The notes below the pieces were generated by a model. The model ran no database searches, was not told the DNA's origin, and saw only the letters and a program-made list of their open reading frames with translations. The translations under genes were made by a program, and so were the position numbers. This document shows, piece after piece, positions 55,660 through 59,754 of a stretch of DNA of 64,000 nucleotides; positions within the stretch are counted from its first letter, which is position 1, and each line of letters starts with the position of its first letter. Source of the DNA: an uncultured Brevinema sp. (lineage in GTDB: Bacteria > Spirochaetota > Brevinematia > Brevinematales > Brevinemataceae); NCBI GenBank assembly GCA_947038195.1, contig CAMQVI010000002.1, forward strand, positions 45,003 to 109,002. The letters are read 5' to 3'.

Positions 55660-57012
55660 ATGAAATTTTACAACTCCTTATCTAAAAACCTAGAAGTATT
55701 TATTACAGATAATACTGTGAAAATATATTCTTGTGGTCCTACCGTTTATGATTATGCTCACATAGGAAATATGAGGACTTTTCTTTTTGAAGATTTGCTT
55801 ATTCGCACTCTAAAGTATTTTTCTTATCCTGTTAAACATGTGCGTAATCTTACAGACATAGATGATAAAACAATCAACAAATCTCAAGAACAAAAAACTT
55901 CTTTAAAAGACTTCACAGAAAAGTATGCCAAAGAGTTTTTTAAGGATCTTGCTCAATTAAATTTTGACGAGACTTCTACTACCTATCTCAGGGCGACAGA
56001 GTATATTGATCCCATGATAAATCTTATAGAAGAGCTCATAGAAAAAAGTTTTGCTTATGATAAGGGAGATGGCGTATATTTCAAAACTTCTTCTTTTAAA
56101 GAGTATGGTAATTTTGCTGGCTTAGATTTAGAAAATCTCCAAGAAGGTGCTGCTGGGGTAGAAGGAGATTATCAAAAAGAAGATTTTGGGGATTTTGTTC
56201 TATGGAAAAAATATAAAGAAAGTGATGGAGATGTTTTTTGGGATAGTCCTTGGGGGAAAGGGAGACCGGGTTGGCATACAGAGTGTGCTGCTATGGTTAG
56301 AAACTCTTTTCTAGAAGGTTTGGATATCCATACAGGGGGAATAGATTTACTCTTTCCTCATCACACTAATGAAAAAGCTCATTGTGAATGTCTGTCTCAC
56401 CAGCCTATGGCTACCTATTGGCTTCATGCCACCCATCTTCTTGTAGATAATAAAAAAATGAGTAAAAGTCTCGGTAATTTTTATACGATTAGAGATTTGT
56501 TAGATAAGGGTTTTGACCATAGAAACATAAGGTTTTACCTGCAGACAGGGGCTCATTATCGCAGTCCTCTTAACTTTACCTTAGAAGGACTGAAAGGCAC
56601 TACATCTGCCCTTAAACGCTTGGATAATTTTATCTATGAAATTAGCGAAACCCCTCAAGAAGGAGATCGCTATTTTCTTAAAGAAAAATTTGATAATGCC
56701 TTACAAGAAGATCTCAATATTTCAGCTGCTATGGGAGAGATTTTTAGTTTAGTAAACGCTTACTATGGTGGGAAAATATTTGATACAAATGCTATTTTAT
56801 TAGAGCTAAAAGAAATAGACAAAGTGCTAGGCGTTTTAAAATTTCCTAAAGAAAATATCCTTGATGAAGAAACTCAAAAACTTTTTGACCTTAGAGTAAT
56901 TGCTAGAGCTGAAAAAAATTGGGCAGAGTCTGATCGATTGAGGGATGAATTGTTAACTCATGGTGTAGAGGTAAGAGACACCAAAGACGCTACGAATATC
57001 AGGAAACTATAA
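55660..57012 (+). CDS. cysS: Cysteine--tRNA ligase
   Basis: YSCGPTVYDYAHIGNMRTFLFEDLL, GRPGWHTECAAM, GGIDLLFPHHTNE, KKMSKSLGNF. Confidence 0.98.
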   Translation: MKFYNSLSKNLEVFITDNTVKIYSCGPTVYDYAHIGNMRTFLFEDLLIRTLKYFSYPVKHVRNLTDIDDKTINKSQEQKTSLKDFTEKYAKEFFKDLAQLNFDETSTTYLRATEYIDPMINLIEELIEKSFAYDKGDGVYFKTSSFKEYGNFAGLDLENLQEGAAGVEGDYQKEDFGDFVLWKKYKESDGDVFWDSPWGKGRPGWHTECAAMVRNSFLEGLDIHTGGIDLLFPHHTNEKAHCECLSHQPMATYWLHATHLLVDNKKMSKSLGNFYTIRDLLDKGFDHRNIRFYLQTGAHYRSPLNFTLEGLKGTTSALKRLDNFIYEISETPQEGDRYFLKEKFDNALQEDLNISAAMGEIFSLVNAYYGGKIFDTNAILLELKEIDKVLGVLKFPKENILDEETQKLFDLRVIARAEKNWAESDRLRDELLTHGVEVRDTKDATNIRKL

Positions 57013-57849
57013 ATGAAATATGTGAATGCTTTTTTTTATAGTTTAATTATTGTAGTAGGTATAGTAGTATCCCAAGTTTTTATTGCGAACCCCAATATCC
57101 AAAAAACCACTTTTGAAAGGGTGATTGCTCTCTCCCCTGCTCACACCCAAAGTCTTGATTATTTAGGCTTGGGGGAGAAAATCATTGCTGTTTCTAGCTA
57201 TGATGAAGATCCAAAATATCAAAATAGGGCTAAAGTCAATAGCATTTATTTTGATAGTGAAGACATCCTTAATCTCAATCCTGATCTTGTTTTAATAGGG
57301 GACTCAAAGGATAAAGAAGATACCATTGCATTTTTAGAAGAAAGAGGCACTAAGGTTGTGAGCCTTAAGACGGAATCCTTTCAAGATATTTATGAAGGCT
57401 TACTTACCCTCCAAGATCTTTTTCCTGAGATTTCTCTATCTAAAATAGAATATTTCAAAGAGACATGGGACAAGATAAAAGCCAATCCTATACCTAAGTC
57501 TAGGACTTTTTTAGCGGTTTTGGAGATCGATCCTCTTTATACAATATCTACCAATAACTTCTTGAATGAGCTACTCTCGTATAGTGGGTGGAGGAATGTG
57601 ATAGAGGTAGAAAATAATTACCCTATCTTATCCGAAGAAGCTCTTCGGCTCTTGCCCGAAGTAGATGATATTATTATTACAAGCACTTATTTAGCCAATG
57701 AAACTAAAGCTCTAAAGCTCATTCAAGATAAAGTTAAGGCAGAACGTATTGTGATTATTTCTAATAAGCACGCCAATCTCCCTTCCCCTTATCTCGTAGA
57801 TATAATAAAAGAGCTCCGACAACAGCAGAGCTTTTTAGTGTTTGATTAA
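57013..57849 (+). CDS. BtuF/FepB-like periplasmic binding protein (helical backbone type), orphan
   Basis: TM/signal; RVIALSPAHTQSLDYLGLGEKIIAVSSYDEDP; LNPDLVLIGDSKDKE. Confidence 0.85.
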   Translation: MKYVNAFFYSLIIVVGIVVSQVFIANPNIQKTTFERVIALSPAHTQSLDYLGLGEKIIAVSSYDEDPKYQNRAKVNSIYFDSEDILNLNPDLVLIGDSKDKEDTIAFLEERGTKVVSLKTESFQDIYEGLLTLQDLFPEISLSKIEYFKETWDKIKANPIPKSRTFLAVLEIDPLYTISTNNFLNELLSYSGWRNVIEVENNYPILSEEALRLLPEVDDIIITSTYLANETKALKLIQDKVKAERIVIISNKHANLPSPYLVDIIKELRQQQSFLVFD

Positions 57850-58490
57850 TAAATAAGGGTATCAATCCTATGTTTGAAGCTTTTAATAGAATTTCCAATT
57901 TCTAGGTAATTCTCATCAGCAAGAGCATCTTTTTGGAAGATAGAGCCTTTTACTCCTACAGCTTTTGCACCTTGTCTTAAAAACTCTAAAGCGGAAGAAA
58001 CGCTTAAACCACCAGTAAGTATAAAATTAGCATCGGGTAAATATTCTAAAATAGAAATAATAGACTTGTGATGTATTTGAGCAGCGGGGAATATCTGGAC
58101 TAAATCGGATTGGGTTTTGTATGCTTCAAAAATTTCTGTAGGCGTAAAACCAGAGATAATAGCAGGTTTTTGGTATAAGGAAGATACAGTAAGTATTTCT
58201 TTGGCTAAAATAGAGCTTACCACAAAATCTGCTCCACATTGAATGATTTTTTCGGCATCTTTAGCAAGGGATAAAAATCCAGCTCCTATCTTTATTTCGG
58301 GAAATTCTTTAGTTAATTCACTAATGATGCAAGCCTCTTCTATTTGTTGAGCATTTTTAAAGTTAATTTGAATAATAGAAACATGGTTTTCTAATAATGT
58401 TTCTACAAATACTTTAGGGTTTTTCATCAATTCATAATCGATGATGGGGAGAAACTTCAAATCTAAAATACGTTCTATTGACACATCCAT
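57846..58490 (-). CDS. KDPG/KHG aldolase-like TIM barrel, catalytic residues apparently lost
   Basis: IGAGFLSLAKDAEKIIQCGADFVVSS, VQIFPAAQ, FILTGGLSVSSALEFLRQGAKAVGVKGSIF; start taken at 58490 (GAGG RBS). Confidence 0.8.
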   Translation of the reverse strand: MDVSIERILDLKFLPIIDYELMKNPKVFVETLLENHVSIIQINFKNAQQIEEACIISELTKEFPEIKIGAGFLSLAKDAEKIIQCGADFVVSSILAKEILTVSSLYQKPAIISGFTPTEIFEAYKTQSDLVQIFPAAQIHHKSIISILEYLPDANFILTGGLSVSSALEFLRQGAKAVGVKGSIFQKDALADENYLEIGNSIKSFKHRIDTLIY

Positions 58491-58562
58491 AAAAACCTCA
58501 TATACTATATTATATATTATCACTTAAAAAGAGAAGTTTTTCAAGAGAATTAGGAAGAAAAA

Positions 58563-59054
58563 ATGAAAAAAAAACCAAATATACCCACTAAACCTGCTAT
58601 TCCCATTGTAAATATCGCAAATAATAAAAAAGCATATCATGATTATGAAGTTTTAGAAAAATATGAGGCTGGTATAGAATTAAGAGGGACAGAAATAAAA
58701 TCTCTCAGAGAAGGAAGAGTAAACCTCAAGGAATCTTATGTATTGGCTAAAGATGGTATTGCTAAAATTATAGGGATGAATATTAGTACCTATAATTTTG
58801 GGAATATTTTTAATCATATTCCTAAAAGAGAGAGACAGCTTCTTCTTCATAAAAAAGAAATCCTAAAATTAGAACAACGGGCTACCCAAGAAGGTTTGAC
58901 TATTATTCCACTTTCTATTTACATTAAAGGTCGATTGGCTAAGCTTTCTATTGGACTGTGTAAAGGGAAAAAGCTCTATGATAAGAGAGAGAGTCTCAGG
59001 GTTAAAGATGCCAATAGAGAAATACAACGTACTTTAAAGTCTTTTACAAGCTAA
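58563..59054 (+). CDS. smpB: SsrA-binding protein
   Basis: NKKAYHDYEVLEKYEAGIELRGTEIKSLREGRVNLKESYV...GLCKGKKLYDKRESLRVKDANREI. Confidence 0.97.
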   Translation: MKKKPNIPTKPAIPIVNIANNKKAYHDYEVLEKYEAGIELRGTEIKSLREGRVNLKESYVLAKDGIAKIIGMNISTYNFGNIFNHIPKRERQLLLHKKEILKLEQRATQEGLTIIPLSIYIKGRLAKLSIGLCKGKKLYDKRESLRVKDANREIQRTLKSFTS

Positions 59055-59286: not shown

Positions 59287-59754
59287 CTAGTATTTATCAC
59301 GTTTTATTAGTATAATCCCCCATACCTTAGAACAAATAATATAAGTTATTACTGCAGAGAATATTGAAAATCCACCGACTGCAGGCCTGATAAAAACCAT
59401 GTAGATAATCCCTGCGCTTATTAGGGAAGCAAAAGACTGAAACATCTTCATTACGTTTGCACCGTTATCAGGCACTTCTTCAATAACTTGTTTTTTACTA
59501 ATTGTATAAGGAGCAGGTCGTGGTGTTACATTGTCTACTCGCTCTTCATTAACAGGTGTTGCTTTGGTGTGTTTTCTTATAGGGGCAGTATTGTTTATTT
59601 CTATATTGTCATATTTGACGGAAGTAGATTGGGATTTTGTATAAATAACTACAAAAAATAGCGCCATCAATAAAACAATCCCAGCCCCTATGTATAAATA
59701 ATAAGTATTTGCAAAAGCGATAAGATCGTTAAGACTATTAAGTTGCCAATTCAT
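59287..59754 (-). CDS. Hypothetical membrane protein
   Basis: N-terminal TM IGAGIVLLMALFFVVIY plus two C-terminal TMs; overlaps the 3' end of pepF. Confidence 0.65.
   Translation of the reverse strand: MNWQLNSLNDLIAFANTYYLYIGAGIVLLMALFFVVIYTKSQSTSVKYDNIEINNTAPIRKHTKATPVNEERVDNVTPRPAPYTISKKQVIEEVPDNGANVMKMFQSFASLISAGIIYMVFIRPAVGGFSIFSAVITYIICSKVWGIILIKRDKY

Follow-up and report, generated by a model that had tools for sequence, protein, structure and literature searches.

A KDPG-aldolase-fold protein of the Brevinemataceae that lacks the Schiff-base lysine and the catalytic glutamate

In the KDPG aldolase of E. coli, Lys133, Glu45, Arg49, Thr73, Pro94, and Phe135 are the key residues (PMC5334617). 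A literature search for a natural pseudoenzyme of the KDPG-aldolase type found none. Pseudoenzymes in general have a conserved fold that is under selection but lacks catalytic residues, and this likeness extends to the protein described here. It is encoded in the window, that is, the whole stretch of 64,000 nucleotides of DNA from an uncultured Brevinema sp. that was analyzed. It represents a clean natural case of an enzyme fold that is without its catalytic pair and has been refitted with fixed new pocket residues, and relatives in sister families that keep the catalytic residues offer a comparison.

A preliminary description of the region had placed an open reading frame at 57846-58490, with an ATG at 58490 and a ribosome-binding site in front of it, and the sequence bears this out:

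57846..58490, minus strand: gene of the pseudo-KDPG/KHG aldolase, 214 amino acids (PF01081, 69.9 bits; an orthologue in each of the family's four genomes)
58496..58499, minus strand: ribosome-binding site GAGG, 5 nt upstream of the ATG (from the sequence)
58516..58544, minus strand: promoter-like site TTGAAA-17-GATAAT of the pseudo-aldolase gene (consensus scan)

Each of the three orthologues begins at the equivalent codon and has a comparable ribosome-binding site (GAGG, GGGG, or GGAG), and the promoter-like site recurs in both other genomes that belong to the genus. Residues 8-199 of the product match the Pfam family Aldolase (PF01081) with a score well over the gathering cut-off (27.8 bits), and the predicted structure is the aldolase barrel fold, which places the protein in this family by sequence and by fold. 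The NCBIfam eda models also match it, far under their curated cut-offs (at best 100 bits vs 232; for TIGR01182, 89.5 vs 156), and solved KDPG aldolases in the PDB match at E ~1e-12. With the Eda family (PF01081; T. maritima 1wa3, E. coli 1eua), it shares homology over its whole length, the barrel fold, the GAG motif, the FPA sequence after the strand-6 residue, and TGG. It differs in having Gln in place of both the Schiff-base Lys and the catalytic Glu, Phe for T73, and Ser for P94, and in the new residues D18 and K181. The pseudo-aldolase could easily be called an Eda aldolase by annotation pipelines, which it is unlikely to be.

Three of the replaced residues are specified by the following codons:

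58368..58370, minus strand: Gln41, at the position of catalytic Glu45 (alignment to 1wa3; Glu in 101/105 phylum members)
58095..58097, minus strand: Gln132, at the position of Schiff-base Lys133 (alignment to 1wa3; Lys in 101/105)
58275..58277, minus strand: Phe72, at the position of Thr73 (Thr or Ser in all other sampled members, Phe in the four family proteins)

When aligned with HMMER to the T. maritima enzyme 1wa3, Gln132 falls on the Schiff-base lysine (LVQIFP/ILKLFP) and Gln41 on the catalytic glutamate (IIQINF/LIEITF); no lysine is placed at the Schiff-base position. A survey of 105 distinct PF01081-family proteins, drawn from genomes of the phylum and including one Bacteroidota relative, revealed Glu in 101 and Lys in 101, the exceptions being the pseudo-aldolase and its orthologues in genomes G001, G002, and G003. 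Gln occupies both catalytic positions in all four of these family proteins and nowhere else among the 105. Most of this sample was found with a profile built from the four Gln/Gln proteins, so any bias should be toward finding further aberrant members and not toward missing them. Four hallmarks of the class I enzyme, namely the strand-6 Schiff-base Lys, the strand-2 Glu, the Thr/Ser of GAGT, and the strand-4 Pro, are without a match in the pseudo-aldolase; Phe135 (E. coli numbering) is retained. The changes of Lys133 and Glu45 to Gln and of GAGT to GAGF, all proposed in the preliminary description, thus stand, the first two by the alignment and the survey and the third by the presence of F72 in all four proteins. 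A change of Arg49 to Lys, which had been listed with them as diagnostic, does not: Arg is present in only 74/105 proteins, relatives of the order with intact Glu and Lys have Thr or Ser, and the G003 orthologue has Arg. As the survey shows this position to be variable within the family, it was rejected as a sign of lost function. Chance or misalignment is ruled out by the HMMER alignments together with the survey, and assembly or sequencing error by the identical changes in four genomes. At the equivalent positions, R-E-[TS]-T-P-K is conserved without exception in the Bacteroidota protein and in eight relatives encoded on plasmids (from Bacillota, Actinomycetota, Deinococcota, and Halobacteria), and no Lys-less member from another phylum was found in this small sample of nine proteins.

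Further positions that distinguish or characterize the pocket are the following:

58437..58439, minus strand: codon of Asp18, at the end of strand 1 (Arg in 8/8 order relatives and in 9/9 sampled proteins of other phyla)
57948..57950, minus strand: codon of Lys181, at the end of strand 8, in place of a conserved Gly (Lys in the four proteins, Gly in 26/30 others; last strand-8 residue in the model)
58008..58016, minus strand: codons of TGG (residues 159-161), the phosphate-site motif, retained (GG in 104/105 members; T159, G160, and G161 invariant in the four)

Comparison of the four family proteins with 30 relatives showed that, at conserved sites, Q41 (E in the relatives), N43 (T), F72 (T), S93 (P), Q132 (K), L158 (P or A), and K181 (G) are unique to the family, and D18 stands in all four where the order's relatives have R. 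These eight residues are invariant in the four proteins, at an overall identity of 49-65% to the more distant members. An AlphaFold2 model of the pseudo-aldolase, built from two sequences and better than the other four models obtained, has a mean pLDDT of 77.8 and a pTM of 0.79. The PDB structures that it matches best are those of KDPG/KHG aldolases and of designed cages derived from these, with 8di1 on top (TM 0.88); scans for viral relatives that could deepen the fold alignment found none. The eight strands of the model comprise residues 13-18, 39-43, 67-73, 89-93, 110-114, 130-133, 156-158, and 177-181, and each of the eight replaced residues is among the final three of its strand. The C-terminal strand ends form the active-site side of such barrels. 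The replacements cluster at strand ends with only modest significance (p ~0.04), and invariance among the four proteins amounts to 25/48 positions at strand ends vs 57/160 in the rest (p 0.045), the strand ends having in both cases been defined after inspection of the model. Judged from the alignments and the predicted structure, the pocket is rebuilt with another fixed set of residues and not merely broken. The pocket changes are few and can be named, so the possible outcomes for such a barrel (a sensing protein, an enzyme with a new activity, or an aldolase whose lysine has moved) are open to direct testing.

The constancy of the pocket bears on the question whether the protein is a noncatalytic scaffold, kept solely as a trimeric structural or protein-binding partner for which the pocket is irrelevant. 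The KDPG/KHG aldolase family forms stable trimers, and this counts for such a role, as does the loss of the catalytic residues. An unconstrained pocket should vary, however, whereas the eight residues are invariant and conservation is somewhat higher at strand ends than in other parts of the protein, and the scaffold role is considered improbable.

The pseudo-aldolase gene is present in 4/4 genomes of the family (G000-G003), always divergent from smpB and with cysS nearby. Its neighbors in the window are:

58563..59054, plus strand: smpB, divergent neighbor, kept in all four genomes
58478..58506, plus strand: promoter-like site TTGACA-17-TATACT of smpB (consensus scan, 11/12; the -35 falls within the opening codons of the pseudo-aldolase gene)
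57013..57849, plus strand: periplasmic-binding-protein-like gene, convergent neighbor, in this genus only
55660..57012, plus strand: cysS, conserved neighbor (PF01406; same place in G002 and G003, fragment at a contig end in G001)

For the least saturated pair of genomes, G001-G002, the dN/dS of the pseudo-aldolase gene was 0.097 (NG86) or 0.054 (YN00), and the comparison values (NG86) were 0.081 for smpB and 0.183 for the neighboring binding-protein gene; the other pairs are near dS saturation, and their values are only indicative. From these estimates, a gene without its catalytic residues is under purifying selection, with a dN/dS of about 0.1, as is characteristic of a conserved pseudoenzyme, and decay was rejected on this value. 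That the gene might be a degenerating remnant of an aldolase that the cell can do without would agree with the loss of biosynthetic genes from the family, in which ilvD is absent from three of four genomes and the long serA is absent as well. Against this, the gene is intact in 4/4 genomes across a divergence of ~50%, the changes in its pocket are concerted and fixed, and its ribosome-binding site and promoter-like site are conserved. The relic explanation, which is scarcely credible, has already been largely refuted.

The three genomes of the genus do not differ in the DNA at the likely smpB promoter (58478-58506). The periplasmic-binding-protein-like gene, which lies between cysS and the pseudo-aldolase gene, scores just under the Pfam cut-off and is absent at that place in G003. 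At 59287-59754 on the minus strand, adjoining an M3 peptidase gene, a 155-amino-acid protein is encoded whose match to SieB superinfection exclusion is weak and under the threshold (E 0.0012).

A lysine on a different strand could in principle have taken over from the lost one. An engineered E. coli KDPG aldolase, K133Q/T161K, reportedly retained activity. The structure of this variant (PDB 1fwr) pairs a lysine on another strand with the very change from Lys133 to Gln that is seen in the pseudo-aldolase, in which Lys181 on strand 8 could play the corresponding part, leaving a class I aldolase-like enzyme of changed specificity. Lys181 is indeed found only in the four proteins without the strand-6 Lys when these are compared with the 30 relatives. 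The two cases differ in that the new lysine was placed on strand 7 (T161) in the engineered enzyme and is found on strand 8 (K181), two strands from strand 6, in the pseudo-aldolase, and in that the pseudo-aldolase is natural, fixed in a family, and also devoid of Glu45 and Thr73. The Phe at the position of Thr73 should, moreover, crowd the pyruvate site. A Schiff base at Lys181 is decidedly improbable; if true, it would be a natural move of the lysine from strand 6 to strand 8, by which the KDPG-aldolase fold would have gained a new class I active site.

The explanation that is best liked, albeit with middling confidence, is that this KDPG-aldolase-fold barrel has lost the reaction of its family and has been repurposed as a ligand-binding, i.e., sensing or regulatory, protein. 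Without the strand-6 Lys, the known class I mechanism cannot operate; pyruvate would not be bound through this lysine, and class I cleavage of KDPG or KHG would not take place. The fixed new pocket residues argue for a retained ligand. Most likely, a small molecule that is phosphorylated or carboxylated can still be bound in the remodeled pocket, and its anion could be anchored by Lys181 and the TGG loop, with Asp18, Gln41, Asn43, and Gln132 reading the rest of it. TGG is also structural, so its retention is no proof of ligand binding. A retained pseudo-aldolase with a repurposed TIM barrel had also been envisaged in the preliminary description, and this idea gains support from the orthology in 4/4 genomes, the purifying selection, the concerted replacement of pocket residues, the modeled KDPG-aldolase fold, and the coexistence of ordinary eda genes.

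Alternatively, the rebuilt pocket could act on a phosphorylated substrate and catalyze another reaction that does not involve a Schiff base, with Asp18 and Lys181 as acid and base. TIM-barrel folds often gain new chemistry, the new charged residues at the strand ends are invariant in all four proteins, and TGG is kept, all of which would suit such an enzyme. Both catalytic residues have been replaced by amides, however, which are better suited to binding, the neighborhood is devoid of pathway genes, and the evidence comes from four sequences only. An enzyme of different chemistry is rather unlikely, and less to be expected than the sensing or regulatory barrel; new catalysis and binding cannot be separated from four sequences.

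The pseudo-aldolase gene is alone in its apparent transcription unit, so there is no operon that points to a pathway. An edd or KDG-kinase gene, the usual though not strictly required company of an eda gene, is not among the neighbors, which are smpB, the binding-protein gene, and cysS. Within the window, no edd is visible nearby, as first described; G000 has a single PF00920 dehydratase gene, located on contig C4 at a distance of 2.8 kb from a normal eda gene. Further PF01081 genes with both Lys and Glu, each adjoining a sugar-kinase gene, are present in G000 (two), G002 (one), and G003 (one), and in these three genomes the ordinary reaction of the family is thus covered by other genes. In G001, which is 79% complete, the pseudo-aldolase gene is the only PF01081 gene seen. 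The eda-kinase pairs of G000 are on contigs C4 and C6 (L043, L055/L021); the pair on C6 adjoins a dapA-like aldolase gene, and that on C4 is near the PF00920 dehydratase gene.

In phylogenetic trees, the four pseudo-aldolases form one clade (support 100/100) on a long branch. An origin as a recent duplicate of an eda gene of the same genome was rejected, as grouping with the normal eda genes of these genomes gave a p-AU of 0.012. Grouping with the aldolases of the order's other families was not rejected (p-AU 0.37) and cost 2.5 log-likelihood units. By sequence comparison, the pseudo-aldolase probably descends from the aldolase that is kept by these other families, often adjoining serA, rather than from the eda genes of its own genome. 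The aldolases in question (G004-G012), each the main PF01081 copy of its genome, are the best-scoring relatives of the pseudo-aldolase (28-40% identity) and share with it the FTPTEI and TGG regions. They differ from it in keeping Glu and Lys, whereas the pseudo-aldolase family has Gln/Gln and its gene is located beside smpB. In 6/9 of these genomes, the aldolase gene (L045-L053), with its catalytic residues intact, is directly downstream of a long serA (L149-L157). The long serA was found in none of the four genomes of the pseudo-aldolase family. A tie between the loss of serA and the loss of the catalytic residues is a lead rather than a result. In place of the long serA, a short SerA-like dehydrogenase of ~300 amino acids is encoded near a neuB-like gene in G002 (L158), G001 (L159), and G003 (L160).
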